This document shows, piece after piece, positions 340 through 26,433 of a stretch of 26,433 bases of DNA. Numbering within the stretch: position 1 is the stretch's first letter; each line of letters begins with the position of its first letter. Made by a program: the position numbers and the translations under genes. This stretch comes from a virus. Location: the IMG/VR virus record IMGVR_UViG_3300042559_000212, positions 1 through 26,433 of that record. One strand, written 5' to 3'. The notes beneath the pieces were generated by a model that worked only from the letters and a program-made list of their open reading frames with translations, was not told the DNA's origin and made no database searches.

Positions 340-442
340 TTTCCCATTGTTTTTTGAATTTAATCCACGCAGCTAGTTTCCTTTGCTCTTTGTATTTTTC
401 TCTATTTATCTTATCTCTTTTTCTTTTCTCTTCTATAGTCAT
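308..442 (-). CDS. 44-residue basic helical protein, unknown function
   Basis: Too short for ordinary ORF cutoffs. The start overlaps the stop of the primase-helicase gene as ATGA, and the end overlaps the start of the nuclease gene; both are typical of translationally coupled phage genes. The product is strongly charged (starts MTIEEKRKRDKINREKYKEQ) with many K, R, E and Q and no hydrophobic segment, so it is probably one long soluble helix, possibly nucleic-acid binding. I recognise no family. Support comes from position and overlap, not homology. Confidence 0.6.
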   Translation of the reverse strand: MTIEEKRKRDKINREKYKEQRKLAAWIKFKKQWENEQTKQTKTT

Positions 443-2763
443 AGCTTAGTTATTTTGAACCATCTACCTACTGCACTTCTACCCTTGTCAAAGTGATACC
501 CCTTAAACTTACAGTACTCATTAACCATCTTAAGATACCTCTGAGCATTCAAATCATGCCACCCTCCTGTATATGTTTGGAAGTCCTGAATAGATACATT
601 GTTATAGTGAAGCGTGTCCATTGTGATATTACCCTCTATAGCGTAATCATAAAACTCCTTATTAGTAGAAGAGATAAACCTTTTATCATCTGCATTGATA
701 GCTTTTGTTTTAACAAGGCCCATTGATAAGAATTTCTGCAGGTTACTGATCATGTAGTTATCAAAGATTAACCAATCAACTACAGTCCAGCTGTCAAACA
801 ATAACCTACCATACTCATCTAATGGATTACGCTGAGCATTAAAGTACTGATTGAATTCTATCTCATGCCTTCTCCTATCATGACTACCACCTGCACCACT
901 TATCACATAGTTGGTAGTTATCACAATCTTAGGTGAACGTTCAAATGGGATAAAGATCTCATCCTTATTCTTTCTGTTTACTGTTATCCCTTCTGAAATC
1001 AGTGAGAATAACTGCTCAAAGTCAAAATTCTTTTTCACATCATCAAAGGCCAGGATCTGACTATCTAAGTTTACCCTCTGATAAACAAAATCACTCTTCT
1101 GAGGGTTGAATGCTTTACCATCTATCTTAACTATATTTCTAATTTTACCAATGGCTGTTAGTACTAAGCTCTTACCACTTCCACCATTAGGATTATCATC
1201 TATCTCCTGATCATTAAAAATAATTGCCTTTTGATCTGTTTTATCTTTGTAGGTATGCAGTAGATATCCTAGGGTAGTCTCTAAGGCATTAACCCTTTGC
1301 TCATCATCTGCAGATACTTTGCTTACAAAGCTCTTAAAATCATTTTCAATAGTCTTAGTTGGCTTGTAATCTCTATCAATGATCTGCCTATCCCAAATGT
1401 AGCCATCTATATCAATGTAGGGCACAATATCTATCTTATCTTTTGTAATCTTTACCACTCCATTACGATAAGGTATGAAGCTCACATCTTTAGTATCCTG
1501 CAGCATCATTAATCCTATTGGCTCTAGCATAGATAAGTGGCCATCTGTAAATAGGTACGGTGACTTACTGCAGTAGTTCCAAACTTCCACTTGCTTCTGC
1601 TTCATAAGATAAGCTAAAACAAAATCTTTCACCTGGTCCACTGAGGATAGATTAACTTTGTTTTCAATTACCCTTACAAATGTAGGTTTCTCTGATCGTT
1701 CAGGATAATACTTATTAAAGCCATACTTGTATAAGAAGTCACGATACTTCATAGGATCTACTGACACCCCTTTCTTATCACTAAAAGTCCAAAACACATC
1801 CTCACTATTAGCCACATCTTTTTTGACATCTTCTACTACATCAGGCTTAATATCTAATTGTTTAGAGATATCACTAGGGGAGATGCCCTCTTTTAATTTA
1901 GACTTTACCTTTATAATGGTTTCTTTATCCTCAAAGTACTTAGTTCCTCTATCACTTCTTTTGTAAGCAGATCCTACACAGGTATTAATTTCGATTTGTG
2001 TAAAGGTCTTATCACTGTATTGGTGGAGGTAAAGCTTAGCAGTATTTTCACTAATGCCATACTCACAAAAACAGGATGCTACCTTAAACACCCAATTATT
2101 CCTACCATTAGATAAATCACCATGATTAAACTTCATGATATTCTCAATTATATTACTTTCATTAGTCATTGGTAGCACTGGCACCTTATCAAATGAGCTA
2201 TGCCCTTTCTCCTCTTCTATAAGATTAAAGACCTCAGCATCTAAATTGATATAAGCTTCAGGATCAAATGACTCAAAGCAAACCCTACTAACATTGCAGC
2301 TAGAAGTATCAAAGTAATCACTATCAATAAACTCCTCAAAGGCCTTAAACCTTCTCTTATGCGTGAATTTATCAGATGGTGGTATCTTAATCACGCACTT
2401 TAATCCTTTGCCTGATGGTGATACAAATATCATAAAGACATTGATACAAGCCATTAGCCGAGCTTTCTCAGCTTCCATTACCTCATCACTAGGATAATCA
2501 TCAAAGTCTAAGATACAAAGACCTGAATGCTCAATAAGGCCATTATCATTACGTTCATTAAAGGTGCCATTAAACATAATAGCTCTAAGGCTGTTTTTTA
2601 GGCTGCTGTAGGCAGGATTATCATCCTCCATAGCTCTAAGAGCAGTGATCTTATCAATAAGCTCAGGGTAGCCTTCTTTTATTCTATTATAAACATCTAC
2701 TACGTCTTGAGTGTATGGAGTTTCTTTAGAATTGAATAAGGACTTGAATACAGATATCTTCAT
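439..2763 (-). CDS. Primase-helicase: VirE_N/BT4734-like primase domain plus D5-like SF3 helicase
   Basis: A 774-residue replication protein. Residues about 45-180 carry the BT4734/VirE_N-type primase-like domain: LCILDFDDY at 82-90 supplies the acidic residues, and FVSPSGKGLKCVIKI at 113-127 is the typical second motif. Residues about 220-270 resemble the helical PriCT-like linker. Residues about 510-640 form a superfamily 3 helicase of the phage/poxvirus D5 type: Walker A GGSGKS (526-531), Walker B ILAFDDV (570-576), sensor-1 asparagine in KIVITTNY (612-619) and an arginine cluster DRRRHE (629-634) suitable as arginine finger. The expected role is primer synthesis and unwinding at the phage fork. 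The gene starts directly downstream of the iteron region and has its own candidate promoter there. The leader has no Shine-Dalgarno site (CTAACTAACCATG). Confidence 0.9.
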   Translation of the reverse strand: MKISVFKSLFNSKETPYTQDVVDVYNRIKEGYPELIDKITALRAMEDDNPAYSSLKNSLRAIMFNGTFNERNDNGLIEHSGLCILDFDDYPSDEVMEAEKARLMACINVFMIFVSPSGKGLKCVIKIPPSDKFTHKRRFKAFEEFIDSDYFDTSSCNVSRVCFESFDPEAYINLDAEVFNLIEEEKGHSSFDKVPVLPMTNESNIIENIMKFNHGDLSNGRNNWVFKVASCFCEYGISENTAKLYLHQYSDKTFTQIEINTCVGSAYKRSDRGTKYFEDKETIIKVKSKLKEGISPSDISKQLDIKPDVVEDVKKDVANSEDVFWTFSDKKGVSVDPMKYRDFLYKYGFNKYYPERSEKPTFVRVIENKVNLSSVDQVKDFVLAYLMKQKQVEVWNYCSKSPYLFTDGHLSMLEPIGLMMLQDTKDVSFIPYRNGVVKITKDKIDIVPYIDIDGYIWDRQIIDRDYKPTKTIENDFKSFVSKVSADDEQRVNALETTLGYLLHTYKDKTDQKAIIFNDQEIDDNPNGGSGKSLVLTAIGKIRNIVKIDGKAFNPQKSDFVYQRVNLDSQILAFDDVKKNFDFEQLFSLISEGITVNRKNKDEIFIPFERSPKIVITTNYVISGAGGSHDRRRHEIEFNQYFNAQRNPLDEYGRLLFDSWTVVDWLIFDNYMISNLQKFLSMGLVKTKAINADDKRFISSTNKEFYDYAIEGNITMDTLHYNNVSIQDFQTYTGGWHDLNAQRYLKMVNEYCKFKGYHFDKGRSAVGRWFKITKL

Positions 2764-2781: not shown

Positions 2782-2810
2782 TAAATATAATCATTATTTC
2801 TATATGACAA
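2782..2810 (-). promoter_or_regulatory. Candidate promoter of the primase-helicase gene
   Basis: On the minus strand TTG (2810-2808) is followed after 18 bases by TATATTTA (2789-2782). This is one base away from the Bacteroidota -7 box TAnnTTTG with a -33 TTG at permitted spacing. Transcription would start about 10-15 bases before the ATG at 2763. The -33 element lies inside a degenerate copy of the iteron (TGACAACT, 2805-2812), so an iteron-binding protein could also control this promoter. The last base of the -7 box is off consensus. Confidence 0.45.
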
Positions 2811-2982
2811 CTCTATGACGCAAAATGACGCAAATTTTAAGCCCTTGTCATAGCTAATAAGTATACTGCTATTGACTTTCAGCGTTTTTATGACGCAATG
2901 ACGCAAAATAAAATAAAAAAAATTATTTAGAAAATGCAAAAAGTTACAGCAGACGCTAATAAGAGAAGTTGTCATTGCGTCA
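2805..2982. repeat. Iteron cluster TGACGCAA with AT-rich flank: candidate replication origin
   Basis: The octamer TGACGCAA occurs five times in 167 bases: plus-strand copies at 2816-2823, 2826-2833, 2891-2898 and 2899-2906, and one inverted copy at 2975-2982. Related octamers are TGACAACT at 2805-2812 and, inverted, at 2967-2974, plus an inverted TGACAAGG near 2843-2850. The first pair is spaced 10 bases, the second pair 8 bases (tandem). A long A/T-only run follows the second pair (about 2905-2935), as in a DNA-unwinding element. The stretch lies between a DnaA-domain-IV-like gene and the primase-helicase gene. Repeats, spacing and neighbours are directly visible; the origin function is inferred. 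It could instead be an operator array. Confidence 0.65.
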
Positions 2983-2986: not shown

Positions 2987-3349
2987 TTAATAATAATTGC
3001 ATCTAATTTGCTCTTTAAGTTTCTCTAATTTCTCCAGGCTAACACACTCTAAAACCCTCTGCTTTAATGGCTTATAGTATTGAGGTAGCACAAACTTCTC
3101 CCTTAATTCTAAGGTATGCATCATATAAGCACTGTCTTTATACTTTGAGTAAGTGTCATGCTTTGCTATCCCATTTATGACAGTTGCGTGTGTTTGGTTA
3201 AACAGCCTACCAATTTGTGATAAGGTCATACCATCCCTTTTGAGCACTTTATACAGGTAGTATCTCTTGTATAGCACATGCATATACCTGCTTTTTTGTT
3301 TTAGATCGTGCTTATCTATGATAGCCTGGACCTCTTCTAGTCTGGTCAT
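2987..3349 (-). CDS. DnaA domain IV-like HTH DNA-binding protein
   Basis: A 120-residue protein. Residues about 38-66 (GMTLSQIGRLFNQTHATVI and on to GIAKH) match the C-terminal DNA-binding domain of DnaA, which reads DNA boxes through a helix-turn-helix with a conserved H-(S/A)-T-V motif; here it is THATV. There is no AAA+ ATPase domain, so this is a stand-alone DNA-binding module, a form common in Bacteroidota phages. The rest is helical and basic (N-terminal KSRYMHVLYKRYYLYKVLKR). It lies immediately next to the TGACGCAA iterons, which makes it the best candidate for their binding protein, either as origin initiator or as regulator. It overlaps the upstream gene by 4 bases (ATGA). Confidence 0.72.
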   Translation of the reverse strand: MTRLEEVQAIIDKHDLKQKSRYMHVLYKRYYLYKVLKRDGMTLSQIGRLFNQTHATVINGIAKHDTYSKYKDSAYMMHTLELREKFVLPQYYKPLKQRVLECVSLEKLEKLKEQIRCNYY

Positions 3350-3588
3350 GTTAGTAGTTTAGGATTAACTGATTTGAACAGCTCGCTTTGACTGTCTACC
3401 AATCCCACTGCATTGATATAGTCTATCTCTACCTTTGCACTGGCTATGATAGTAGCACTCAGCTGAGCTATTGCTTTAGCCTTTTCTACTTCCTGATTTA
3501 CTTTCTCATTACTCATGTCCTCATCAGCTAATCTTTCAAGTGCCATAAAGATGTGATCACGTAGATCACTTAGTTTGTTGTTTGCCAT
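3346..3588 (-). CDS. Conserved small phage protein, unknown function
   Basis: An 80-residue, mainly helical acidic protein. The pattern KLSDLRDHIFMALERLAD followed by EKAKAIAQLSATIIASAKVE is that of a family widespread in phages of several phyla, usually located near replication and recombination genes; its function is not known to me. No membrane segment, cysteines or nucleotide motif can be seen. Its start overlaps the end of the HNH gene by 23 bases, and its end overlaps the DnaA-like gene by 4 bases, so it sits inside a translationally coupled chain. Confidence 0.7.
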   Translation of the reverse strand: MANNKLSDLRDHIFMALERLADEDMSNEKVNQEVEKAKAIAQLSATIIASAKVEIDYINAVGLVDSQSELFKSVNPKLLT

Positions 3589-4174
3589 TTGTTTTACGTT
3601 TTAGTTTACATGTTAGTTTCATTACTTCCTGTAGCTCAGCAGGATATCTTTGTATTGTATTACGAGCCATATTTTCCTTTCTACTTATTACTTGTAGGTT
3701 GCTTAGTTCACAGTTCAAATAGTTACCATCTAAAAATATGACTACAGATCCTGGAGGTATCTCACCATTTGCCTGAGTCCATACGTGCCTCTGCAGTAAT
3801 TCCCATTGGCAATCTTTAATTTTGATATATTGATAAGGCCTTCCCTGTGTATCTAATCTTATATTGATAGTTCCTACAGGCTTAGTATTGTGAGGCTTAT
3901 TGCCCTTCTTAAACATGGTGGGTGCTACCTTCTCATATATCTCTGCATTTAACTGCTTACCTTTATTGTGTGGAGTGTGCCCTGGCTTAAACTGATTAGC
4001 TACAGATGGCTCTATAATCCTACCACTTTCAGGTGTAAGCATATACTCAGCTGATTTCTTTACCTTAGCACCCCATGCAGTATTGTATACCTTGCTTATG
4101 GTTACCCCTAGAAGCTCAGCTATGTACTTACTGCTGTGATTTGGATAGAGTTCTATAATCTGCTGTTTTATCAT
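3566..4174 (-). CDS. HNH endonuclease (HNH_3 type) with NUMOD-like repeats
   Basis: A 202-residue protein. Residues 1-45 look like an HTH that reads short target DNA (HSSKYIAELLGVTISKVYN). Residues 62-72 (FKPGHTPHNKG) and 88-96 (FKKGNKPHN) are two copies of an F-x-x-G-x-x-P-x-N motif seen in NUMOD regions of phage HNH proteins. The HNH core covers about 124-170: WELLQRHVW with H130, PPGSVVIFLDGN, then NCELSNL with N154 and N159. The second histidine expected before the DGN motif is replaced by F (VIFLDGN), as in a known Bacteroidota phage subgroup, so activity is likely but not certain. It may be a freestanding homing endonuclease or a nickase used in replication. Nothing suggests an intron. 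It is coupled by ATGA to the 48-residue gene before it. Confidence 0.8.
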   Translation of the reverse strand: MIKQQIIELYPNHSSKYIAELLGVTISKVYNTAWGAKVKKSAEYMLTPESGRIIEPSVANQFKPGHTPHNKGKQLNAEIYEKVAPTMFKKGNKPHNTKPVGTINIRLDTQGRPYQYIKIKDCQWELLQRHVWTQANGEIPPGSVVIFLDGNYLNCELSNLQVISRKENMARNTIQRYPAELQEVMKLTCKLKRKTNGKQQTK

Positions 4175-4317
4175 ACTGTCTCAACTTTAAGTATTAATCT
4201 AGGCCACATGGCCATTAGTTGTAAAGCGTGCTCTTTGTCTAAGGCTTCTAAGATCCTGGTGCCTATCATCTTTTTTCCACTTTCAAAATAGTTGTAGGTT
4301 ACTTTATATCTTTTCAT
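4171..4317 (-). CDS. 48-residue hypothetical protein
   Basis: A short gene below usual length limits. Both ends use ATGA overlaps: its ATG overlaps the stop of the HTH gene at 4314-4317, and its stop overlaps the ATG of the HNH gene at 4171-4174. This places it firmly in the coupled operon. The product begins MKRYKVTYNYFESGKKMIGT and continues with a helix rich in leucine and methionine (ALQLMAMWPRLILKVETV). A beta-strand pair followed by a helix is likely. No family is recognised. Its length and its place beside HTH and HNH genes recall small phage regulators, but that is only inference. Confidence 0.65.
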   Translation of the reverse strand: MKRYKVTYNYFESGKKMIGTRILEALDKEHALQLMAMWPRLILKVETV

Positions 4318-4499
4318 TTTATGTAGTATTTGTTATTATCCTTTTCTAATTTATAACCTATCTCTTCATACATCTTTAAGTACCGGTAAACTGATCTAGT
4401 GCTGATGCCTAAGTATCTAGACATTGAGTTAATAGGCCTAGGCTTAACTTGTAAAAACTGCATAAGCTTTATTATTCTCATTACCCTATGCTGGTTCAT
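4314..4499 (-). CDS. Small winged-helix/HTH transcription regulator
   Basis: A 61-residue protein that is almost entirely one HTH_11/DeoR-like domain: RIIKLMQFLQVKPRPINSMS (first helices), YLGISTRSVYRYLKMYEEIG (recognition helix), then a beta-wing (YKLEKDNNKYYIK). Such single-domain proteins are common in Bacteroidota phage early operons and probably bind DNA as dimers. It could tune early transcription, for example at the 5.2 kb promoter; this is inferred from position. ATGA overlaps on both sides show translational coupling. Confidence 0.75.
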   Translation of the reverse strand: MNQHRVMRIIKLMQFLQVKPRPINSMSRYLGISTRSVYRYLKMYEEIGYKLEKDNNKYYIK

Positions 4500-4666
4500 T
4501 TCTCTTGTTTTATTTCGTTAAAATCTTGTTCTGATAAATAGTCTAGGTAAAGCTCCAGGTTGAAGCTTCCACCTTTATCACCATCACAGCTTTGATCTCT
4601 CCACCATTGCATCTTTCGCTTAAGGCTAAAAGTGGTAGGTATAAATGTGTTTTCGTTAGTTTCCAT
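4496..4666 (-). CDS. 56-residue hypothetical protein
   Basis: I chose the ATG at 4666 (METNENTFIP) because it follows the upstream stop at 4669-4671 directly, within an A/T-rich leader. An alternative ATG at 4678 would add MYLN and overlap the upstream gene by 10 bases. The product is acidic at its C-terminus and contains a WWRDQSCDGDKGG segment. No membrane segment or known motif can be seen. It ends in an ATGA overlap with the HTH gene. Function unknown. Confidence 0.6.
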   Translation of the reverse strand: METNENTFIPTTFSLKRKMQWWRDQSCDGDKGGSFNLELYLDYLSEQDFNEIKQEK

Positions 4667-4668
4667 AT

Positions 4669-4920
4669 TTAGATACATTCAGGGTTATTGTAAGCCCACT
4701 CTTCTACAAGTTGGGTTGTCTCTTCTAGCTCTCTGCTAGTCAAGGGTGTGAAGATGATGTAATTTTTGCCTCTTTGATAGCTATCTACCAGCAAAGCTTC
4801 ATAGATACCCTCCTCAACAAAGTAGCATCTGTACTCAGCAGTGTAAATTATACCTCCATCTTCAGAGGCCCACCATACATTGATGTAGCCTTTTTTCAAG
4901 TAGTCTATCTCGTAACTCAT
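4669..4920 (-). CDS. 83-residue acidic hypothetical protein
   Basis: The product is soluble and acidic, with alternating beta-type segments (YINVWWASEDGGIIYTAEYR) and a helical C-terminus (TSRELEETTQLVEEWAYN). No family is recognised. The start overlaps the stop of the 26-codon gene before it as ATGA. Its place in the early operon and its small acidic form would fit a host-takeover or DNA-mimic type protein, but nothing in the sequence proves this. Confidence 0.6.
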   Translation of the reverse strand: MSYEIDYLKKGYINVWWASEDGGIIYTAEYRCYFVEEGIYEALLVDSYQRGKNYIIFTPLTSRELEETTQLVEEWAYNNPECI

Positions 4921-4997
4921 AGTGCACAGGATAAATACATTCCTACTAAAAAGAGTGTTAAGGCTGCTAAGCCCTGGATAAAATCAATAGTTCTCAT
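4917..4997 (-). CDS. 26-residue single-span membrane peptide
   Basis: A very short frame (MRTIDFIQGLAALTLFLVGM, ending YLSCAL) with one hydrophobic stretch from about residue 5 to 26. It starts inside the last codons of the upstream 58-residue gene and its stop overlaps the next ATG as ATGA, the same coupling used by its neighbours. That layout is the main support. If real, it would be a small inner membrane peptide. Chance cannot be excluded at this length. Confidence 0.4.
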   Translation of the reverse strand: MRTIDFIQGLAALTLFLVGMYLSCAL

Positions 4998-5160
4998 CTA
5001 AGCCTAATTTTTCGATTAATACTAAAAGTGTTGCATACTTAGTTTGTAGTCTCTGAGCTGCAGGATCTGTATGTCCGAATGCTCCGACCATCTCATTGTA
5101 CTCATCTCTCAACTCTATTGAATAGAGGAGGATAGTAGCTTTCATTTGTTCTGTTGTCAT
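4984..5160 (-). CDS. 58-residue helical protein, first gene of the left (replication) operon
   Basis: The first gene after the gene-free stretch. The product begins MTTEQMKATILLYSIELRDE and is probably two helices (second: TDPAAQRLQTKYATLLVLIE). It is slightly acidic and has no known motif. The start has an A-rich, Shine-Dalgarno-less leader (AACTAACCAATG) very like that of the primase-helicase gene (CTAACTAACCATG). A good promoter lies 36 bases upstream. First genes of phage early operons are often host-takeover factors; no function is claimed here. Confidence 0.65.
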   Translation of the reverse strand: MTTEQMKATILLYSIELRDEYNEMVGAFGHTDPAAQRLQTKYATLLVLIEKLGLDENY

Positions 5161-5195
5161 TGGTTAGTTTTAATTGGTTAGTAAATAATTATTTT

Positions 5196-5228
5196 CAAAT
5201 ATACGAACAAACATTTAATTGTATACAA
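5196..5228 (-). promoter_or_regulatory. Promoter of the left (replication) operon
   Basis: On the minus strand TTG (5228-5226) precedes TATATTTG (5203-5196) by 22 bases. TATATTTG is an exact TAnnTTTG Bacteroidota -7 box, and the spacing is within the 17-23 range accepted for Flavobacterium promoters. A second TTTG lies only 8 bases upstream of the box. The predicted start leaves a leader of about 30 bases before the ATG at 5160. No other gene start lies nearby, so this promoter should drive the genes from 5160 down to at least 2987. Confidence 0.65.
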
Positions 5229-5500
5229 CTTTATCGTTATCAATAATCATTCTAAATAAGGAATATGAACATATAAGCCTATCATGTATAGAAAATGCAA
5301 TAATTTGGACATGAGAAAATCAGGTTAGTAGCCTATGTTTTTTGAATTTATTTCAAGGAATAACCTTAAATATACTTTACAAAAAGTAGGTAATATGTTA
5401 GCTATATTATACATTATGCCACCATTACAGCTATTATGTTGGTTATAACCGTCACAAATCTTGGTAGAATTGCTCACTAAACCTACTGAGTTTATTGTGC

Positions 5501-5544
5501 AAAAAAATAACCCCCTACCAAACTAACCAAAGATATAGGGGGCT
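5501..5544 (-). terminator. Rho-independent terminator of the late/lysis operon
   Basis: Read on the minus strand, AGCCCCCTA (5544-5536) pairs with TAGGGGGTT (5517-5509), a 9-base stem with one G-T pair and an 18-base loop, followed by A and seven T (5508-5501). It lies about 32 bases downstream of the exonuclease stop codon, so it ends the long leftward transcript before the replication operon begins. The long loop is unusual, but stem and T-run are clear. Confidence 0.8.
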
Positions 5545-5575
5545 ATGAGTCTCTAATACGAGACCTGGTGCAAAC

Positions 5576-6352
5576 TTACGAAATATTTTTCTTTATTATC
5601 CTATACTTTACCCAATCTTCATAAGTTTTATTATTCACTTTAAAATATTTGTTACAAGGGTTACATATTAACCAATGGTGAATTGTACCTGCTGAGGTAG
5701 TGACTTTCTTATTATAACGTATGTTAGTAGTACCACATTGAGGGCAATCAAATTTGTCTCCTCCTGTTAATACAGCATAATTAACCTTTGATTGTGTGTA
5801 TGAATTAAGCTTATCAAAGACACTTTCTAGTACTGTCACATCCATCTTACAATAAGCCACCATCTTAGCCATTGCATCAGGTGATTTTTTAAATACGATG
5901 TCTTTCCACAAATCAAGGCCACCTGTGTCCATCTTAGCACCTACACCTAAAAATTTAGCTATGTAGTCAAGTTTATTAGAGTTAAAGTTAAAATATCTCT
6001 TAGCCTCTTTAAGAGTATCAATTGTATTATGTATTGGAGGCATTCCTAAATTGTGAAATAAGCACCTAGTTCTAATCCATTTCATATCAAACCTATCGCC
6101 ATTGTGAGCTACAATTTCATTAGCTTGAGCCATTACCTTTAAGAATTTCTTTAGCATTGCTTTATCTGACTGCTTACTATCCCATTCTAAGCTATGTACT
6201 TCGTCTTCACCTTCCCATTTATAGCATATGCATATAATGGCTCTTTCGTGAATTATGTCACCGGGGTTAATGGTCAAGTTATAACCACTTCGCCAAAATA
6301 TTCCAACATTAAAACTTGTTTCAATGTCAAAAAACAATCTTTTTCTTATCAT
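5576..6352 (-). CDS. DnaQ-like 3'-5' exonuclease (DEDDy) with C-terminal zinc ribbon
   Basis: A 258-residue exonuclease of the RNase H-like fold. The motifs are in order: ExoI LFFDIETS with D9 and E11, ExoII IVAHNGDRFD with D86/D89, ExoIII YCKMD with Y167 and D171, giving the DEDDy set used by B-family polymerase proofreading and related stand-alone enzymes. Residues 203-233 add CPQC and CNPC, a four-cysteine zinc ribbon likely to touch DNA. No polymerase domain follows, and none is visible in the window, so it acts alone or with a host polymerase. It is the last gene of the late transcript, after the lysis cassette, and its ATG shares one base with the spanin stop. An exonuclease in this place is unusual. 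Confidence 0.88.
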   Translation of the reverse strand: MIRKRLFFDIETSFNVGIFWRSGYNLTINPGDIIHERAIICICYKWEGEDEVHSLEWDSKQSDKAMLKKFLKVMAQANEIVAHNGDRFDMKWIRTRCLFHNLGMPPIHNTIDTLKEAKRYFNFNSNKLDYIAKFLGVGAKMDTGGLDLWKDIVFKKSPDAMAKMVAYCKMDVTVLESVFDKLNSYTQSKVNYAVLTGGDKFDCPQCGTTNIRYNKKVTTSAGTIHHWLICNPCNKYFKVNNKTYEDWVKYRIIKKNIS

Positions 6353-6804
6353 TAAAAGGGGAGATAAAGTTTAAGGAGTAGTCTAGTGATAAATGACAGG
6401 AGTACTCCTATAATGAAGCCCCATACTAGAAGCATCCAATTAGTTTTGGACTTAGTTATCTGCACAGCTTTACGCTGCTCTTTAGCTTCTCTATAGATAT
6501 ACTTGTATTTGAGCACATCCTGTTTAAGCACCTTAGTTTTATATCTGTACTCTATCCTGGTCTGATACCTGGTCTTAGGCATCTCTAGGATCTGTATAAT
6601 AGTATCTTTAGTGGTTATGAATTTTTCGTATCTAATCGTATCATTACGTATCACTGCAAAGCTATCTATGGTATTAATCTTAATTGTATCATTTGCTATA
6701 CTTAAGCCAAACTTAACAGCCTTTTTATAGTGGTATTGTGCTTTCTTAGCGTCTGAACAGCTAAATAGTAGGGATAGTATTAAAAGTGGTAGTAAGTGTC
6801 TCAT
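6352..6804 (-). CDS. Predicted unimolecular spanin (outer membrane lipoprotein with C-terminal membrane anchor)
   Basis: A 150-residue protein with two membrane anchors. The N-terminus is a lipoprotein signal (MRHLLPLLILSLLFSC) with cleavage before C16 and serine at +2, which allows sorting to the outer membrane. A long charged periplasmic part (about 20-120) rich in beta and coiled pattern follows, then one hydrophobic segment at about 123-147 (NWMLLVWGFIIGVLLSFI) in the inner membrane. This lipobox-plus-C-terminal-anchor topology defines u-spanins, which link and fuse the two membranes in the last step of lysis. It lies directly after holin and amidase, overlapping the amidase stop by 4 bases. 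I know of no sequence family that would confirm it; the call is by topology and context. Confidence 0.75.
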   Translation of the reverse strand: MRHLLPLLILSLLFSCSDAKKAQYHYKKAVKFGLSIANDTIKINTIDSFAVIRNDTIRYEKFITTKDTIIQILEMPKTRYQTRIEYRYKTKVLKQDVLKYKYIYREAKEQRKAVQITKSKTNWMLLVWGFIIGVLLSFITRLLLKLYLPF

Positions 6805-7448
6805 AAGCTCTCTAACATTGTTATCATTCTAGGGCAGGGATAGATATCACTCTTATCCTTTCGCACTGAATTGTGGGTAAATATACCACTTTCTCCTTTC
6901 AAAGCACGTTTATCAATATCAAAGATGGTAGCAAAGTAAGTTCTAGGGATATTATATTGGTCACAAAGGTACACTAGCAGCTTCCGAGTAGACTCTATTT
7001 GTGCATCTGTATACTTCTGCCAATAGATATAGCCTTTGTACTTTTTATCTAAGATAGTTACCTCAGTGTAGTCTACTTTACCCCCTACATAATTATAGTA
7101 GTATCCGTTCTTTTTAGTCAATGGGCCATAGTTGCAGATCTCAATGCCTACAGATATCTTATCTAAGCTCTTGTATGGTACTCCTGACTCTGTGAATATC
7201 TCTTGCTTTAGGCCCAGGTGATAAGCCCAATTTTTGGAGCTAAAGCATTGCACTATAGTACCTCTTGCACCAATGATAAAAGCAGTGGCTACTTTGCCTA
7301 CTTGATTGTTAAAAAATTTAGCTACATTAACAGCATCAGGTCCTCCTGCAGTATGGTGCAAATAGATCTGTTTCTTATCAGTAAGCTCATCAACAAATTG
7401 GTCTTTAGATAGACGGTGTTGAACTATCTTTGTTATATCTAACTCCAT
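6801..7448 (-). CDS. Endolysin: N-acetylmuramoyl-L-alanine amidase (Amidase_2)
   Basis: A 215-residue peptidoglycan amidase that cleaves between N-acetylmuramic acid and L-alanine. Seen: YLHHTAGG at 29-36 with the zinc histidine (H31/H32), the NWAYHLG segment at 73-79, GIEICNYG at 101-108 with the conserved acidic residue, and FTHNSVRKDKSDIYPCPR at 190-207, which carries the second zinc histidine H192 and the K/D/C end of the active site. There is no signal peptide or cell wall domain, so release depends on the holin encoded just before it. The start overlaps the holin end by 44 bases; no better in-frame ATG precedes the catalytic H31. Confidence 0.93.
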   Translation of the reverse strand: MELDITKIVQHRLSKDQFVDELTDKKQIYLHHTAGGPDAVNVAKFFNNQVGKVATAFIIGARGTIVQCFSSKNWAYHLGLKQEIFTESGVPYKSLDKISVGIEICNYGPLTKKNGYYYNYVGGKVDYTEVTILDKKYKGYIYWQKYTDAQIESTRKLLVYLCDQYNIPRTYFATIFDIDKRALKGESGIFTHNSVRKDKSDIYPCPRMITMLESL

Positions 7449-7896
7449 CTATGTCTTGTTTAATTTCTTTAGAACGCTGTAGTAAATTCTTAAATGCTGA
7501 CCATATATCTATGCCTTTTACAGCCTTGTAATTTTCGGATATTGATATCACCTCTATACTACAAAGTACTAGAGATAGAATTTTGGTGAGCATTAAAGGC
7601 ACACTAAAAAATGTTAAAATAATATCATTAAGAATAAACTTATCTATCAGGTAGAAGCCAATAACAGCCACCTCATATAAAAACAATTTAGATACTATAG
7701 CTGAAAGCTTGCGAGATGTAATGGGTAACCCTAGTTTTTTAGACTTCCATATCCCTGTTAGCGTATCTACAAAAATAGCAAACCCAATTAAGAATAATAT
7801 ACCTGAGATAGGTAAAAAGAAAGAACCTACCACTGCTAATATTTGTATGATTGATTTTTGTATTGATGATATAAGAATAGCTAACTGTATTTTCAT
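7405..7896 (-). CDS. Holin (Phage_holin_4 / toxin secretion lysis holin family)
   Basis: A 163-residue membrane protein with hydrophobic segments at about 15-45, 68-88 and 92-118. The sequence FVDTLTGIWKSKKLGLPITS between the first two is the D-x-x-x-G-I signature loop of the Phage_holin_4 family, followed by a conserved serine/lysine stretch (SRKLSAIVSK). The C-terminus is soluble and charged. The gene stands immediately before the amidase, as in a typical lysis cassette, and its ATG shares a base with the upstream stop (TAATG). It forms the membrane lesion that lets the amidase out. Members of this family have also been seen with toxin secretion; the context here supports lysis. Confidence 0.88.
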   Translation of the reverse strand: MKIQLAILISSIQKSIIQILAVVGSFFLPISGILFLIGFAIFVDTLTGIWKSKKLGLPITSRKLSAIVSKLFLYEVAVIGFYLIDKFILNDIILTFFSVPLMLTKILSLVLCSIEVISISENYKAVKGIDIWSAFKNLLQRSKEIKQDIDGVRYNKDSSTPSI

Positions 7897-8462
7897 TAGA
7901 GTATTAAGATAGAGTTATTGTATCCATTCTCTCTGAATGTACCACAGTTGCCTAGGCAAGTTGTTTGATATTGGTTAATGCAGCTGCAGTTATTAAACAT
8001 TGGCCGTAGATCAGTATCCTGATTAGTGGTAGAGATAAACTGAGGGAATAGGTTTCTATTAACTAGCAGCCATCTGATTAATCTTTGCTCAAAGAAGCTA
8101 GCTTTCTGTGCATAATGCTCCATCCCAAAGGCTACCTCGTTTCTAGATACACTAGCTGAGTAGTCTCCTGACTGAGTTTGAAGTCCTTTATTTTTAAGTT
8201 GGTAAGTCAAACCAAAGACAGCATCTTCAGCAGATCTCCAAGCTATCACAGGCTGTATGAACTCAACTAAATTTATCTCATCAGGATTAAGTGCTGTGTT
8301 ATTATACTGAGTTAATAAATAGTTGTAAAAAGTAGTGCCTAAGATAGGCTGTACTCTTAGTGCTGCCTGAGTAGCTATGTATGGTGTAACATCTGTAACA
8401 TCCACATTGGCTGTAATAGGTGTGTTAACTTTTAGATAAGTTTCAGTTATGAAGTATAGCAT
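7896..8462 (-). CDS. Head-tail connector/adaptor candidate (DUF6712-like)
   Basis: A 188-residue structural protein next to the portal gene. The start MLYFITETYLKVNTPITANV and the helical segment with AALRVQPILGTTFYNYLL resemble a family common in Bacteroidota phages that lies after the portal and is assumed to be a neck adaptor (I recall it as DUF6712). Residues 159-173 contain four cysteines in the pattern C-x-C-x7-C-x3-C, unusual for a virion protein and possibly a metal site or disulfides. Its ATG shares a base with the portal stop, so synthesis is coupled. Adaptor role is inferred from place and length. Confidence 0.65.
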   Translation of the reverse strand: MLYFITETYLKVNTPITANVDVTDVTPYIATQAALRVQPILGTTFYNYLLTQYNNTALNPDEINLVEFIQPVIAWRSAEDAVFGLTYQLKNKGLQTQSGDYSASVSRNEVAFGMEHYAQKASFFEQRLIRWLLVNRNLFPQFISTTNQDTDLRPMFNNCSCINQYQTTCLGNCGTFRENGYNNSILIL

Positions 8463-9760
8463 TATACAGTAGGTGTTATAGGGGTTGTTTCAATCGCAGG
8501 TAAATCAGCTAGAGCTCTTATCTCATTAGGTGTCATGTTATCTAGTATCTTCTGAGCAACAGTAGGGTGCATAGCACTGATTAGGTTGTTTATTCTCGAA
8601 GCATCACCCTCTAGCTCTACTATACTTTCATCTATAACCTGGAAGTTATTAATAGTGAACTCTGCAGGTATCTTAGAGATTGTTAGTAACTCGTTGAAAA
8701 TATGCTGAACACAGCTCCTAAGCTCCATTACTACATTCTTTTCAAAGATTACATAAGCCTGCTTAATATCTGCACCACCACCTAATGATCCTGTAGTACG
8801 TACACCCATTAAAATAGGATCTATTGTGTGAGCAAAACAAATCTGCTCAGTGTTAAGTTGTGAAGCTTCTTGAAATAGGCTATCATTACCATTAGTAGGC
8901 ATTGCTTCTATCTTAGGTAACTGCTCAGCAGAATTAGCAAAGAACGCTACAGCTTTACCTGCATTAGCTGCTCCTTTCATTCTGTCTATAGTCTCTTTAA
9001 TCATATGCTTCTCCTCCTCACTTTGTGGTCGCTTGGGAAACATCATAGCAAATGAAGGAAATACTGAGTTTTGGATGTTACTCTTAGCAAAGTAGCTTAG
9101 CTCACCTGATAAGAAAGCAAAGTTAAGACAGCTAGTATATTGTGGTAGTGAGTAGTGATCTTGGCCTATAGATTTAATCTCGTAGCAGTATAGTTGCTCA
9201 TAGTCAGTATTGGCTATGTGGTATGGCTTTATCTCTTGGATGCCTATCCTACGTGACCAATCATCACAAATAAAATACATTTTCTTATCAGCACTTACTC
9301 TTACTTTCTCAGGGGATACATTTTCTATCCTAGTAATCTTTTTGCCTTGACTATAACAAATCTTAAAATACACCCTATTATGGATGATGAGCTGCTTAGT
9401 GGTAGCCTTAACAATATGCTTTAAGTTAATCTTACGTTCAAAAGTGTATAGCTCTAATTTTTCAACAGTAGTTAATAGATCAGTCTTAAGAGCAAAGCCA
9501 CCACCGATAACTGCATTAGTTTTGAAGTCCACAATGGCACCATGCAAAGGTGATGAGTAGTACATCTGATTGAGTAGACTAGGGTAGAGATTATCAGCCC
9601 CAAAATTTATCCACATATTAGCACTATACCTAGGATCTACATAAGGTAGTGTAAGATTGCCAGGGCCAACAGGCATAAATGGGGTGCTAAAAGATTGGTA
9701 GCCTTCTACCACTTCAGGGCCTTTACTTGCTGTCTTAAAAAAATTGCTATACCATGCCAT
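8462..9760 (-). CDS. Portal protein
   Basis: A 432-residue portal, close to the normal PBSX/SPP1-like length. Seen: an N-terminal arm, then DNLYPSLLNQMYYSSPLHGAI, and VDFKTNAVIGGGFAL, the classic portal start; the wing region contains ENVSPEKVRVSADKKMYF; the stem and crown follow with KETIDRMKGAANAGKAVAFF and QICFAHTIDPILMG. The dodecameric ring sits at one head vertex, binds terminase during packaging and the tail later. The gene lies after the capsid and tail tube genes in transcription, against the common order terminase-portal-protease-capsid. Translation is coupled to the connector gene. Confidence 0.9.
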   Translation of the reverse strand: MAWYSNFFKTASKGPEVVEGYQSFSTPFMPVGPGNLTLPYVDPRYSANMWINFGADNLYPSLLNQMYYSSPLHGAIVDFKTNAVIGGGFALKTDLLTTVEKLELYTFERKINLKHIVKATTKQLIIHNRVYFKICYSQGKKITRIENVSPEKVRVSADKKMYFICDDWSRRIGIQEIKPYHIANTDYEQLYCYEIKSIGQDHYSLPQYTSCLNFAFLSGELSYFAKSNIQNSVFPSFAMMFPKRPQSEEEKHMIKETIDRMKGAANAGKAVAFFANSAEQLPKIEAMPTNGNDSLFQEASQLNTEQICFAHTIDPILMGVRTTGSLGGGADIKQAYVIFEKNVVMELRSCVQHIFNELLTISKIPAEFTINNFQVIDESIVELEGDASRINNLISAMHPTVAQKILDNMTPNEIRALADLPAIETTPITPTV

Positions 9761-9762
9761 AA

Positions 9763-10113
9763 TTAATCGTATATTGAAGTTCCTACAGGCCCACTTACCA
9801 CCATTCTACCCTCTTCTATCACCACTCCTGTGGATTGTGCAATAGTTAATGGTAGTACATAGGGTGTTGAGCTCTGATAAACTTGGTAAATAAATTGCCC
9901 TTGCTTTAAGATGATATCTACAGGCTCATTAAGTACAAAAAGATTGTACCTTTCAGGCCATAAGCTAGTATCAGCAGTAGTAAATAACTGAGGCACACTA
10001 GCAGTATTCATCTCATTAGTAAAAGCGAATAGATAATGAGGGGTGGGTACAGTTGTGACCTCTGTTAAGGTTAGCACTACCTGGTTAATCACTCCCTGTT
10101 CAATGTATATCAT
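9763..10113 (-). CDS. Small virion-associated protein of Bacteroidota phages
   Basis: I place the start at 10113 (MIYIEQGVINQVVLTLTEVT), not at the longer ATG at 10164, because the longer form would begin inside the terminator stem and T-run at 10151-10177 and because a near copy of the phage leader motif (TAATATAGTTATG) abuts the 10113 ATG. The product has 116 residues, all beta-type, with a YLFAFTNE segment and an SLWPERYNLF segment that I recall from small structural genes of Flavobacterium phages. Possible roles are head decoration or tail completion; I cannot choose between them. Confidence 0.65.
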   Translation of the reverse strand: MIYIEQGVINQVVLTLTEVTTVPTPHYLFAFTNEMNTASVPQLFTTADTSLWPERYNLFVLNEPVDIILKQGQFIYQVYQSSTPYVLPLTIAQSTGVVIEEGRMVVSGPVGTSIYD

Positions 10114-10123
10114 AACTATATTA
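10114..10123 (-). promoter_or_regulatory. Leader motif copy (one mismatch)
   Basis: TAATATAGTT directly abuts the ATG of the 116-residue gene. It is the same element as TAATATAGGT at four other gene starts, with one base changed (GGT to GTT). An AAACA-rich patch lies about 25 bases upstream. Confidence 0.5.
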
Positions 10124-10150
10124 TATGATGTTAGGCAAATGTTTAGAAAT

Positions 10151-10177
10151 AAAAAAAGCCCCACAATATGCAGGGCT
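10151..10177 (-). terminator. Internal terminator after the tail tube gene
   Basis: On the minus strand AGCCC (10177-10173) pairs with GGGCT (10161-10157) around an 11-base loop, followed by a run of T (10157-10151). It lies about 20 bases after the stop of the tail tube gene. It would reduce transcription into portal and lysis genes, so capsid and tube mRNA would be more abundant. The stem is short, so partial read-through is likely. Confidence 0.65.
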
Positions 10178-10197
10178 AATTTTAGAGAGGCAGTAGA

Positions 10198-10749
10198 TTA
10201 AACTAAGCCATAAATTGCGTAATTACCTGGTACAGCTAAATCAACTTCTAGGGCTAAAGACTCATTCTCAGCTACCAAAGTAACAGTGTACTTAGAACCA
10301 TCGGCACGAGCAACACCAGAACCTTCACCAGTAGCAGTAAGCTGCAAGTATGGGAAGTACCAATATCTACCATTAGCATCTAATACTACACCTGCAATAT
10401 ACTGTTGACCTGAAGCAAGTATCTTAAGTGCATTAGACTTAGCAGCTTCACGACGGTGAAATACTAGGTTAATAGTTTGAGTAACAAAAGTTGAACCATT
10501 GATAAGATCAGCAGCTTGCTCTTCTGTATAGTTTGATGTATTCCTGCGAATGAAATAACTTTCAAATTGTAAAGGAGGTATAGTTACAGGATCAAATGTG
10601 ATAGCTGTTACTTTGTAATCAGGATAAGTAGTTGAAGTTGCAACAGAAGCAATACTATCTTGAGGGATAAACCATACCTGATAAATTCCCCCTGAATTAT
10701 TGGCGCAAGATTTTTGGATTCCCTCCAAAGCGGTGCATAAATTGGGCAT
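10198..10749 (-). CDS. Major tail tube protein candidate
   Basis: A 183-residue protein. The beginning (MPNLCTALEGIQKSCANNSG) and the beta-rich body with YQVWFIPQDS, then NLVFHRREAAKSNALKILAS and YWYFPYLQLTATGEG match a family that forms the tail tube in Bacteroidota siphophages. The last part (TVTLVAENESLALEV) is the usual closing beta region. It follows the major capsid gene and has its own terminator after it, in keeping with high expression. Its distance from the tape measure gene is unusual, because tube and tape genes normally lie close together with the chaperones between them. Confidence 0.72.
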   Translation of the reverse strand: MPNLCTALEGIQKSCANNSGGIYQVWFIPQDSIASVATSTTYPDYKVTAITFDPVTIPPLQFESYFIRRNTSNYTEEQAADLINGSTFVTQTINLVFHRREAAKSNALKILASGQQYIAGVVLDANGRYWYFPYLQLTATGEGSGVARADGSKYTVTLVAENESLALEVDLAVPGNYAIYGLV

Positions 10750-10766
10750 ATGTTTAAGTTTTATAT

Positions 10767-10784
10767 AAAGGGGGTTGCCCCCCT
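10767..10784 (-). promoter_or_regulatory. GC-rich hairpin with GNRA-type loop between capsid and tube genes
   Basis: On the minus strand GGGGG (10783-10779), loop GCAA, CCCCC (10774-10770), extended by an A-T pair on each end. This perfect 5-6-base stem closed by a GNRA tetraloop lies in the 49-base gap after the capsid stop. TTT follows, then ATATAAAA, so the T-run is too weak for a strong terminator. A role as mRNA end stabiliser or partial attenuator between the two genes is inferred. Confidence 0.55.
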
Positions 10785-10798
10785 CTATGAATTAATAA

Positions 10799-11722
10799 TT
10801 AAGATCCGAAAACGATTTCTGTAGGATTAACATAGTTAAAGCCAATTTTCATATTTGCTCTTGTTCGGATGTAAGGCTCAGCAACTGTATCTGCCAAGTT
10901 CACTGCACGTAGATCTGATGGATCAGATTCAGAATCAAACAAATAGACTAGATTATCCTTTAAAGTAATTACCAAATGGTCATTAGACATACCTGGACAA
11001 AGTACAATCTTAATACCTAAGTAAGTAAGAGCTAGATCTTGAGTGATATATGCATTAGTGTTACCTGAAGCCACTCCTAATCGGTAGATGTTTACTAATT
11101 GAGTTGGTAAGTAGATGCGTAAATCTGCAGTACGTGATGCAATGTTAGCAGGTACTAAAGCAAATGCAGCTTCTAAGTCAGTTAATAACTGAGCAAAAGT
11201 AGGTGTAGGTGTCATAGCGTAAGGAATAACAGCTATATCTCCTGCAAGTTGTACTTCGTAACCATCACACAAAGATAGTGGGTTAGCAGGAAGTAAAGAG
11301 CTATCACCTTGCCATCTCAATGATTCAATAGATCCATTAATAGAGTTAGCCATCTCACTCCAGTAGAAGTTCATAAAGTTAGCTACAGAGAAATCACCAT
11401 TAGAACCTTGTGCCATTTGTAACGAAACGAAAGACTGCTCCAGATCAAATTGACAGATCTGCGCAAGTGCTGATAGGGCACACACCGACATCAATTTAGC
11501 TGTCAATTCATCCTGTGGTGGAGTGAAAGCACATGTAGATGGTTGTAAAATGTCACCAAAAGTTACAGTACCAATTTTAACCTCATACTTTACACCTGGC
11601 AAAGTACGAAAGTTATCTACGATATCTGATGATCCTAGGTAAGCCTGAGAGTAAAAGCTCTCTGCATTGGGTGTAAGTGTAGCACCTGCACCATTGTTTA
11701 AATCAAATCTTAATTTTCTCAT
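10799..11722 (-). CDS. Major capsid protein
   Basis: A 307-residue protein right after the protease/scaffold gene, the usual place of the HK97-fold capsid protein. It begins MRKLRFDLNNGAGATLTPNA and shows alternating helix and beta regions, including a long central helix region with QDELTAKLMSVCALSALAQ and a C-terminal NMKIGFNYVNPTEIVFGS that fits the P/A-domain end. It matches capsid proteins of Bacteroidota phages in pattern. The leader is exceptionally A-rich with repeated ACAAA before ATG, as in strongly translated Bacteroidota genes. A TAAATTTA box in the end of the upstream gene could be a weak promoter. Whether subunits are cross-linked cannot be told. Confidence 0.85.
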   Translation of the reverse strand: MRKLRFDLNNGAGATLTPNAESFYSQAYLGSSDIVDNFRTLPGVKYEVKIGTVTFGDILQPSTCAFTPPQDELTAKLMSVCALSALAQICQFDLEQSFVSLQMAQGSNGDFSVANFMNFYWSEMANSINGSIESLRWQGDSSLLPANPLSLCDGYEVQLAGDIAVIPYAMTPTPTFAQLLTDLEAAFALVPANIASRTADLRIYLPTQLVNIYRLGVASGNTNAYITQDLALTYLGIKIVLCPGMSNDHLVITLKDNLVYLFDSESDPSDLRAVNLADTVAEPYIRTRANMKIGFNYVNPTEIVFGS

Positions 11723-11733
11723 TTTGTTTGTTT

Positions 11734-12696
11734 TTATTTGTTTGTGTTAAATTTATTAAAGTTACTTAATCTTTGCTGCACGCTTAATGCTACAGCCTCC
11801 TCAACTACCTCTTCTTCACCATCAACAGCCATAGCATCTTCTAGTTGTGCTTTTAGGTCTGCTATCATAGCTACTAAATTATTTACTTCTGCATCTAGTG
11901 CAGGCTTAACTATTGCTAGTATTGCCTCAGCATCTAAAACAGGATCTACAGCCATAGTCTCTTCTACTACTTCCTCCTCTTCTACTACTGTATCTTCTAG
12001 GGCTACCTCTTCAGTGGTCTCCTCTACTTTAACATCACGTATCTCAGTAATCTCTCCATCTTTTACGATATAGATTTTACCCTCAATAGTGTGCTCTCCA
12101 TCAGGTAATTTGTTCATATTTATTTTGGTTTTTAATTGTGTTACCTCTTTTAATTTCATACCTAAGTATCCCTCAATGCTGAAGCCTACCTGGTCATTAT
12201 CTACCAAATGGTTATAGTACTCAACATCAGTTACCTGAGCTGTTACCATTAAGGTGCCTGTAGGTACCTCTATACCAAATGAAGAGTAAGCTTTATCTTT
12301 AGTAGGGTTGTCTACAATCCAAGCTTCAAGTACATAGGCAGGCACAGTCTCAGTAGTATCATGCTCTAAATTAAACAGGTCCTTATTAGACATGTCTTTC
12401 ATAAACTTAGAATGAATCTTCTCTATCTCTTCTTTAGTAAACTTAACATAGTACTCTTTCCCATCCTCATCATCTTTACGATAGATCTCCATAGGTATAA
12501 GAGCAGGTGCTACAATACGATACTTTACATTATCCTTAAATATCATTTGCTTAGCCTGAGAATTGAAAGCCATACCCATTACTTTGATAGCAGGAGTGCT
12601 AGTAAAAGCTATTTGTTCTATCCCTAAGTCCTCCCCATTTTCAGAGTATTCAGGATCTATAGTAATTTTGTAAATAGGTAAATTATCTTTTGCCAT
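11734..12696 (-). CDS. Prohead protease (XkdF-like) fused to scaffold domain
   Basis: A 320-residue two-part protein. Residues about 1-195 resemble the XkdF-like serine protease: LFNLEHDTTETVPAYVLEAW with the expected histidine in LEHD, PTGTLMVTAQVTDVEYYNHL, and VGFSIEGYLG with the nucleophile serine candidate of GFS. Residues about 215-300 are very acidic, full of E, V and A with coiled-coil character (DLKAQLEDAM), typical of an internal scaffold that is cleaved out of the prohead. It precedes the capsid gene. The start abuts a leader motif copy and faces the plus-strand chaperone promoter; the two genes share only about 40 bases of control DNA. Confidence 0.85.
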   Translation of the reverse strand: MAKDNLPIYKITIDPEYSENGEDLGIEQIAFTSTPAIKVMGMAFNSQAKQMIFKDNVKYRIVAPALIPMEIYRKDDEDGKEYYVKFTKEEIEKIHSKFMKDMSNKDLFNLEHDTTETVPAYVLEAWIVDNPTKDKAYSSFGIEVPTGTLMVTAQVTDVEYYNHLVDNDQVGFSIEGYLGMKLKEVTQLKTKINMNKLPDGEHTIEGKIYIVKDGEITEIRDVKVEETTEEVALEDTVVEEEEVVEETMAVDPVLDAEAILAIVKPALDAEVNNLVAMIADLKAQLEDAMAVDGEEEVVEEAVALSVQQRLSNFNKFNTNK

Positions 12697-12723
12697 ACCT
12701 ATATTATATTATTTGTATATTTG
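12690..12723 (+). promoter_or_regulatory. Plus-strand promoter of the chaperone genes
   Basis: TTTG at 12689-12692 and TATATTTG at 12716-12723 form a Bacteroidota promoter; the -7 box is exact and the gap is 23 bases, the upper end of the accepted range. The ATG at 12738 follows only 14 bases after the box, so the leader would be very short and A-rich. The -33 element overlaps the start of the leftward protease gene. Confidence 0.6.
12697..12706 (-). promoter_or_regulatory. Leader motif copy
   Basis: TAATATAGGT directly abuts the ATG of the protease/scaffold gene. The same ten bases stand at the same zero distance before the genes starting at 15911 and 22970, and with one change before 25225 and 10113. 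ACAAAT patches lie just upstream. Confidence 0.6.
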
Positions 12724-12737
12724 TAAAAAAAACAATT

Positions 12738-13283
12738 ATGATAACTATTTTAGGAAAAGAAATTCCAAACCACCTTGACGAGCTGACTATAGAGCAGTTT
12801 GAAGTAATAACCGAGCTTAGCAATAACAAGGAGCTTGACGCTGTAGATAAGCACTTACAAATCTTTGCTAGCTTAGGCTTAGCTGAAAGTGAGTTTTATG
12901 ATGTAGATGTGGCTGACTTCATTGAGTACACCAATGCATTTAATACTATCCCTGAGGTAGACTACCCTACCATCTCACAAATTGAGTTAGCAGGATACAG
13001 CTACACAGCTGAGCTTAAGATGACAGTAAGAGATACAAAGCTTATTGAGAAGATAGCCATAGCTAAACCTAAAGGATATATTAGTGATGTGCTAGCAGTT
13101 TTCTTTAAGAGGGATGATCTTACACCTGCTGAGCATTATGCTGAGGCTCACTTAAAATTGAAAGCAAAATTAATTAAAGATCTTAAGGCTAACATAGCTA
13201 TTCCTTACTTATTGTTTATCACGAATAAATTAATCAAACAAGTAGATAAAGCAGAAGATGTACCTACCGAAGAAGTGGAGTAA
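12738..13283 (+). CDS. Tail assembly chaperone-like protein 1 (opposite strand)
   Basis: I start at 12738 (MITILGKEIPNHLDELTIEQ) because the longer frame from 12690 would begin upstream of the promoter box and inside the leftward gene. The product has 181 residues: a short N-terminal beta part, an LTIEQFEVITEL motif, then helices and an acidic end (AEDVPTEEVE). Together with the next gene, which begins inside its last 26 bases, it resembles the G and GT pair of tail assembly chaperones that coat the tape measure protein during tail assembly. It is one of only two plus-strand genes in 26 kb. Family assignment rests on pattern and place. Confidence 0.65.
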   Translation: MITILGKEIPNHLDELTIEQFEVITELSNNKELDAVDKHLQIFASLGLAESEFYDVDVADFIEYTNAFNTIPEVDYPTISQIELAGYSYTAELKMTVRDTKLIEKIAIAKPKGYISDVLAVFFKRDDLTPAEHYAEAHLKLKAKLIKDLKANIAIPYLLFITNKLIKQVDKAEDVPTEEVE

Positions 13284-14451: not shown

Positions 14452-14587
14452 CTCTTAAATCTTTATAAATCTCTACTGTATCATCTACTAAGATAATACC
14501 CTTATCAGTTTCTACGTGAAGTTGTGTATCACTAATAATCTCAACAGGTCCAGTAATAGTGTAATCAGTTCCGTTAATATTAAACAT
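14438..14587 (-). CDS. 49-residue beta-rich hypothetical protein
   Basis: A short gene (MFNINGTDYTITGPVEIISD and on) that overlaps the end of the tail fibre gene by 8 bases and the start of the next gene by 14 bases. The product is a likely small beta structure with alternating hydrophobic residues (TQLHVETDKGIILVDDTVEI) and no cysteine or membrane part. The tight overlaps support it. It could be a minor tail component or fibre chaperone; nothing decides this. Confidence 0.55.
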   Translation of the reverse strand: MFNINGTDYTITGPVEIISDTQLHVETDKGIILVDDTVEIYKDLRDGIR

Positions 14588-15650: not shown

Positions 15651-15653
15651 ATC

Positions 15654-15911: not shown

Positions 15912-15921
15912 ACCTATATTA
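15912..15921 (-). promoter_or_regulatory. Leader motif copy
   Basis: TAATATAGGT abuts the ATG of the 85-residue gene. AAACAAAT stands about 20 bases upstream on the minus strand, as also seen before the genes at 22970 and 25225. Confidence 0.6.
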
Positions 15922-15940
15922 GTTTAGTAAAGTGATTTGT

Positions 15941-18609: not shown

Positions 18610-18610
18610 C

Positions 18611-21487: not shown

Positions 21488-21488
21488 C

Positions 21489-22980: not shown

Positions 22981-22990
22981 TTTTAATTGG

Positions 22991-26150: not shown

Positions 26151-26154
26151 GGCC

Positions 26155-26415: not shown

Positions 26416-26433
26416 TGTTAATCATTGTTAAAA

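Follow-up and report, generated by a model that had tools for sequence, protein, structure and literature searches.

A candidate replication origin in a Bacteroidota phage whose iterons covary with a primase-helicase and not with the neighbouring DnaA-like protein

Introduction

The alpha protein of P4 is a single polypeptide that unites a primase and a helicase with a winged-helix domain binding the origin, and it acts on repeats there, as summarized in PMC4234260 after Ziegelin and Lanka 1995 and Yeo et al. 2002. In SaPI Rep and SCCmec Cch2 a C-terminal domain reads short direct repeats located beside the gene; these proteins and the SaPI5 primase-helicase, to which a primase is fused, are self-loading initiator helicases (PMC7581432). 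PLE satellites of Vibrio cholerae replicate only with a cognate origin and RepA, as proven by origin swaps, and their iterons covary with the DNA-binding domain of RepA and are exchanged with it as a module (PMC8263062).

The phage locus described here resembles each of these systems in part. It shares with P4 a primase-helicase as proposed initiator, with a predicted winged helix, and repeats at the putative origin. The P4 primase is however of the TOPRIM type, whereas an AEP fold is found here, which places the protein outside the P4 alpha family; the exchanged allele series and the DnaA-like neighbour seen here are likewise not described for P4 in the source cited. An initiator helicase is shared with SaPI and SCCmec, but the origins of those staphylococcal satellites and cassette elements lie downstream of the gene, while the array studied here lies upstream in phages of Bacteroidota. 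Covariation and modular exchange of iterons and initiator are shared with PLE, where the initiator is in contrast of the RepA_N type with an N-terminal reading domain and no fused primase-helicase, and the iterons are three semi-palindromic units of about 30 bp. Finally, a neighbouring 120-aa protein has a fold like domain IV of bacterial DnaA, but unlike in the DnaA/oriC system it has no AAA+ domain, the adjoining gap holds no DnaA-box cluster and the repeats do not track the protein. The array would be a variant of the known initiator-helicase/iteron way of working, to which a natural allele series is added.

Results

The phage and its replication genes

The window, meaning the whole stretch of DNA analysed, is the IMG/VR virus record IMGVR_UViG_3300042559_000212 (26,433 nucleotides). 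Related contigs with end repeats had unit lengths of 27.9–32.2 kb, so that the window represents nearly a whole genome, that of a phage of Bacteroidota of roughly 28 kb. In two over-long contigs, one of 37,405 b (L038/L039) and one of 36,833 b (L118), the first bases recurred at 27,851 and 30,469, meaning that these genomes are about 28–30 kb and either circularly permuted or assembled through their ends. Where relatives lie in named genomes, the record labels are Flavobacterium, Polaribacter, Pedobacter and further Bacteroidota, with one relative in an Aliivibrio MAG. A literature search returned no published description of replication in this phage group, and no isolate of the group turned up in the collections that were searched. 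The window carries an SSB-like gene at 26173–26415 and a DNA-polymerase-type exonuclease gene at 5576–6352. An HNH endonuclease gene (3566–4174, minus strand; PF13392, phrog_1891) lies in the replication region, two genes upstream of the DnaA-like gene.

The iteron array

The array occupies a 223-bp gap (2764–2986), bounded on one side by the start of the primase-helicase gene and on the other by the stop codon of the 120-aa gene. Its features are as follows.

2782–2789, minus strand: −7 box TATATTTA of the primase-helicase promoter, from sequence and a recovered shared motif
2804–2811, plus strand: degenerate iteron ATGACAAC resembling type B, placed over the presumed −33 box of that promoter
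2816–2823, plus strand: iteron TGACGCAA, exact match
2826–2833, plus strand: iteron TGACGCAA, exact match
2844–2851, minus strand: degenerate iteron, inverted single copy after the spacer (CTTGTCAT on the plus strand)
2853–2860, minus strand: TTATTAGC element abutting the inverted iteron, pattern chosen by eye
2891–2898, plus strand: iteron TGACGCAA, exact match, outer copy of a tandem pair (8-bp pitch)
2899–2906, plus strand: iteron TGACGCAA, exact match, inner copy of the pair, abutting the A/T run
2905–2929, no strand: A/T-only run of 25 bp, candidate DNA unwinding element, from sequence and stability
2955–2962, minus strand: second TTATTAGC element, pattern chosen by eye
2968–2975, minus strand: degenerate iteron, inverted (GTTGTCAT on the plus strand)
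2975–2982, minus strand: iteron TGACGCAA, inverted, exact match

The initial annotation had described five exact octamers, four direct and one inverted, together with about three degenerate copies, one of them on the −33 box of the primase-helicase promoter, and an A/T-only run in the middle. All of this was borne out. A scan of the whole 26,433-b window returned exactly five copies of TGACGCAA, all inside the gap (2816–2982), where 0.18 were expected by chance in the whole window and at most 2 occurred across 100 shuffles. No exact copy was found elsewhere in the window, and one-mismatch copies there were near chance level. The three degenerate copies are of the TTGTCAT type, the one at 2804–2811 coinciding with the presumed −33 position, and the 30-mer starting at 2905 was the third least stable place in the window. 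The −7 box, which we take to be of the Bacteroidota type TAnnTTTG, was found in most alleles.

The layout recurred with other sequences in related loci, whose iteron classes are defined below. Classes A, B and E have in common an A/T run, directly after it a tandem pair with 8-bp pitch, then a 30–40-bp spacer, a single inverted copy that is degenerate in some alleles, more direct copies and finally the initiator promoter. The tandem pair beside the A/T run recurs in types B and E with other sequences, and the position of the inverted copy at 2844–2851 is common to other alleles. The A/T run and tandem pair shared by different alleles gave a Gibbs information of 20.8, versus 15–16 in shuffled sequences. 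A spacer consensus, TTGATTTATAGCC, was clear in classes E and G only. Rfam searches returned no matches.

Iteron classes among related loci

Related loci were gathered with two primase-helicases, that of the window and one of type D, and with three DnaA-like proteins, the 120-aa protein and two further forms. The 73 distinct loci in which covariation was evaluated comprised at least seven iteron classes, counted with A and B merged and E2 separate.

Class A (the window): TTGCGTCAT
Class B: main iteron CTTGTCAT
Class C: TCGTAGTGAT
Class D: GTGCAAAGT
Classes E and E2: ATCGTCACG
Classes F and G: singletons, F being locus L090 and G locus L119

E2 has the E core in common, with fewer copies and a primase-helicase only about 59% identical to that of E. 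The entropy of iteron class over the 73 loci was 2.00 bits, of which 0.00 was left once the primase-helicase cluster was given (70–95% identity) and 0.3–0.6 bits once the DnaA-like cluster was given (0.32–0.49 at cut-offs of 70–95%). Iteron class changed 14 times on the DnaA-like tree but 6 times on that of the primase-helicase, the fewest changes that seven classes allow. DnaA-like proteins 96–100% identical were found beside A, C and D iterons, and proteins only 25–31% identical occurred in some phages with the same iterons. L007, L011 and other loci encode a DnaA-like protein 96–98% identical to that of the window and are devoid of TGACGCAA, the kind of outcome (the gene present, such repeats absent) that the initial annotation had given as refuting its reading; in L011 (type C) that protein is 96% identical, the primase-helicase is 63% identical and the iterons are of type C. 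As the array adjoins both genes, simple linkage cannot account for this asymmetry; breakpoints recurred where the DnaA-like gene meets the array, and none was observed where the array meets the initiator gene. The iteron sequence follows the primase-helicase and is dissociated from the DnaA-like protein, contrary to the initial annotation, in which the latter was the iteron reader.

Four more distant primase-helicases (L209, L210, L212 and L213) had iterons of their own and no DnaA-like gene was found in their loci, meaning that this gene is not needed for such an array. Three of these, L209, L210 and L213, are in MAGs labelled Flavobacterium, Polaribacter and uncultured Bacteroidetes and have the iteron AAGTGTTGC in common, with initiators only 43–45% identical. 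A primase-helicase 50% identical to that of the window was encoded in the bacterial genome of Pedobacter sp. L105 (L207) with neither repeats nor a DnaA-like gene upstream, and is possibly part of a prophage or decayed element. The closest full-length primase-helicase in INPHARED was 38% identical, with no repeats upstream.

The DnaA-like neighbour

2987–3349, minus strand: gene for the 120-aa DnaA-domain-IV-like protein, a conserved neighbour of the cassette, from Pfam, synteny and fold

The likeness of this protein to DnaA domain IV, as proposed initially, was upheld. It matched Pfam Bac_DnaA_C with E 7.8e-6 and 26.3 bits, under the gathering cut-off of 31.5, while its relatives L080 and L119 exceeded the cut-off (35.2 and 36.0 bits). 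The best matches of its structural model were the DnaA domain IV structures 8btg and 3pvp, with probabilities of 0.98–0.99 but E values of only 0.2–0.3. H54 of the HATV signature and R29 are conserved, and the match was to domain IV only, with no AAA+ ATPase domain in the 120 residues. The gene is adjacent in 135 of the 169 primase-helicase loci, nearly all others being cut by contig ends, and is kept beside every allele in this phage group. A search of INPHARED with the protein matched no phage. From this synteny the DnaA-like protein appears to be a conserved partner of the cassette in this phage group.

Joint action, in which the initiator reads the iterons while the DnaA-like protein binds a host factor or the conserved element of TTATTAGC type, is in our judgement rather unlikely, although synteny is kept with all alleles of the group. 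Other alleles carry TTATAGCC, TTATAGGC or TTATAAGC in place of TTATTAGC, and a TTATTAGC/TTATAGCC-type element was found in 10 of 15 lineages, abutting the inverted iteron in 9 of these 10; the 0.5 expected understates chance because the pattern was picked by eye in that very set of lineages. TTAT is likewise the start of DnaA boxes. However, L210 carries the element with no DnaA-like gene in the locus, and the element is absent from type D and some type B origins. Words common to A, C and D origins, evaluated as a possible target of the DnaA-like protein, were not in excess. Tentatively, the DnaA-like protein may be a universal partner, an allele-independent factor compatible with whichever origin-initiator cassette has been swapped in. 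It might, for instance, recruit or block replication factors of the host, or control the promoter region that the alleles share. Keeping one such coupling protein would allow the phages to swap origin specificity.

The primase-helicase as proposed initiator

439–2763, minus strand: primase-helicase gene, 774 aa, proposed initiator (PF08800, PF08708, phrog_28855, invariant motifs)
2200–2763, minus strand: AEP primase-polymerase domain, residues 1–188 (fold match 6zp9, Z 8.1)
1783–1929, minus strand: predicted small HTH, residues 279–327, second possible DNA-binding module (fold matches 7bca and 2r0q, Z 5.7–5.8)
829–1323, minus strand: SF3 helicase motor, residues 481–645 (invariant motifs)
442–693, minus strand: predicted C-terminal winged helix, residues 691–774, candidate iteron-reading domain (model, fold matches, divergence)

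A fused primase was evident from the PF08800 and PF08708 (PriCT-1) matches and the AEP fold. The residues of SF3 motifs A, B and C (NGGSGKS, LAFDD and TTN) were unchanged in 21 sequences, type D included, the invariant residues being N526, G527, S529, G530 and K531 (Walker A), D574 and D575 (Walker B) and T616, T617 and N618 (sensor). The full-length model (mean pLDDT 58) was poor except in the end domains; the winged helix was modelled at pLDDT 75–91 with topology H-E-H-H-E-E and had winged-helix matches at modest scores (Z 5–6). The P4 origin-binding domain was absent from the structure match lists of the primase-helicase domains, which excludes nothing, and a sequence search of the PDB with the primase-helicase returned no matches. 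The gene falls in phrog_28855 (E 1e-165), which is listed as of unknown function.

Given an origin, the primase-helicase is very probably the iteron reader, as judged from the covariation. The winged helix was the most divergent part of the initiator between iteron classes: its identity was 0.28–0.51 between BT4734-type classes (0.78 for the A–B pair) and 0.81–0.94 within classes, while that of the SF3 motor was 0.75–0.89 between these classes and 0.98 from A to B. Between A and C the winged helix is 35% identical and the motor 89% on average, with 50-residue blocks reaching 98%; since the motor is nearly alike while the iterons are unrelated, it is unlikely to be the reader. Residues 190–480, the predicted HTH included, also diverge between classes, and the assignment to the winged helix therefore leans also on the precedent of P4 alpha and SaPI Rep/Cch2. 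On divergence, predicted structure and precedent together, we favour, with some reserve, reading through the C-terminal winged helix. Reading through the internal HTH or the 328–480 region instead is unlikely: the HTH fold resembles those of repeat-binding HTHs and its sequence diverges between classes (0.37–0.64), but the stretch is unrelated in type D (identity 0.14–0.25) despite iterons and a similar layout there, the winged-helix-like tail can still be aligned in type D, and the reading domain is C-terminal in SaPI Rep/Cch2 (PMC7581432) and in P4 alpha (PMC4234260).

L069 and L070 have near-identical C-termini, one with type A and the other with type B iterons, and no residue of the C-terminus was found to distinguish A from B iterons. 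Either one reader tolerates both or the determinant lies elsewhere. Based on the GTCAT core and layout in common, types A and B were treated as one tolerant specificity.

Exchange of the origin-initiator cassette

Exchange was visible in L007 (type D), which is 95% identical to the window over 1–442 and about 89% identical over 2987–13323 and 21811–26433; the comparison covers the L007 locus, and an unlinked covarying gene may sit in 13324–21810, which lies outside it. In L007 the segment corresponding to 443–2986, that is, the origin and the primase-helicase gene from stop codon to stop codon, is replaced, the initiator being 26% identical to that of the window and the iterons different. Origin and initiator gene are exchanged between phages as one cassette. 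The type D primase-helicases (L141 and L007) matched PF09250 (Prim-Pol), versus PF08800 (BT4734-like_N) in the other types tested, with a related SF3 motor; judged from this domain content, type D is a domain exchange on top of the cassette exchange.

Discussion

The array had been proposed as a candidate phage replication origin with the DnaA-like protein as its reader, and of these two claims the first is supported. Based on position, iterons, A/T run and an architecture conserved in relatives, the array is likely to be a replication origin. GC skew is not decisive for its location. With most genes on one strand the skew was near-monotonic, and after detrending the distance of the minimum from the array was 0.2–4.5 kb in genomes of types A, B and D and 6–16 kb in those of E and G. 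An array that is mainly an operator of the primase-helicase promoter, with the true origin elsewhere, would fit the degenerate copy at the presumed −33 position and the −7 box of most alleles; this reading is nevertheless improbable, as an array of eight sites that spans 180 bp, extends to where the preceding gene stops and includes an A/T run and a conserved order is more than an operator requires, and the allele is exchanged along with a replication initiator. The stand-alone DnaA-domain-IV-like protein is very improbable as reader of the iterons and starter of replication, for although its gene is adjacent in most loci and it has the domain IV fold with H54 and R29 conserved, it occurs near-identical beside unrelated iterons and strongly diverged beside the same ones, four loci have iterons and no such gene, DnaA boxes are not in excess (the box TTATNCACA was absent within one mismatch from 2764–2986 and showed no excess in the window), and the covariation contradicts it.

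Taken as a whole, the reading of the locus as the origin of a Bacteroidota phage, read by a 774-aa AEP-primase/SF3-helicase initiator and exchanged with it as one cassette, is in our judgement fairly likely. The initiator would bind the tandem pair beside the A/T run as well as the inverted copies, and bound initiator would assemble and open the A/T run. It may then load its own helicase and subsequently prime. Initiator bound to the copies over the −33 box could in addition repress its own promoter.

Within one phage group, at least seven iteron classes form a natural series, each paired with an initiator of its own and several in almost identical backbones, which makes the recognition code of primase-helicase initiators directly testable. 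The 'unknown function' family phrog_28855 becomes a candidate origin-reading initiator, and a route is offered to finding origins in uncultured Bacteroidota phages. The exchange also raises the question of what selects for it; in PLE satellites the selector of origin swaps appears to be an iteron-targeting nuclease in ICP1 (PMC8263062).

A further observation concerns the region between promoter and start codon of the primase-helicase gene. The window, of type A, has no long leader there. In L007 (type D), L101, L107, L114 (type E) and L119 the leader is long and contains T-runs and hairpins resembling terminators, for instance GAGAG...CCCCTGCC...GGCAGGGG...CTCTC in L007; it had no Rfam match, and the primase-helicase leader in these five loci looks as if it were attenuated.
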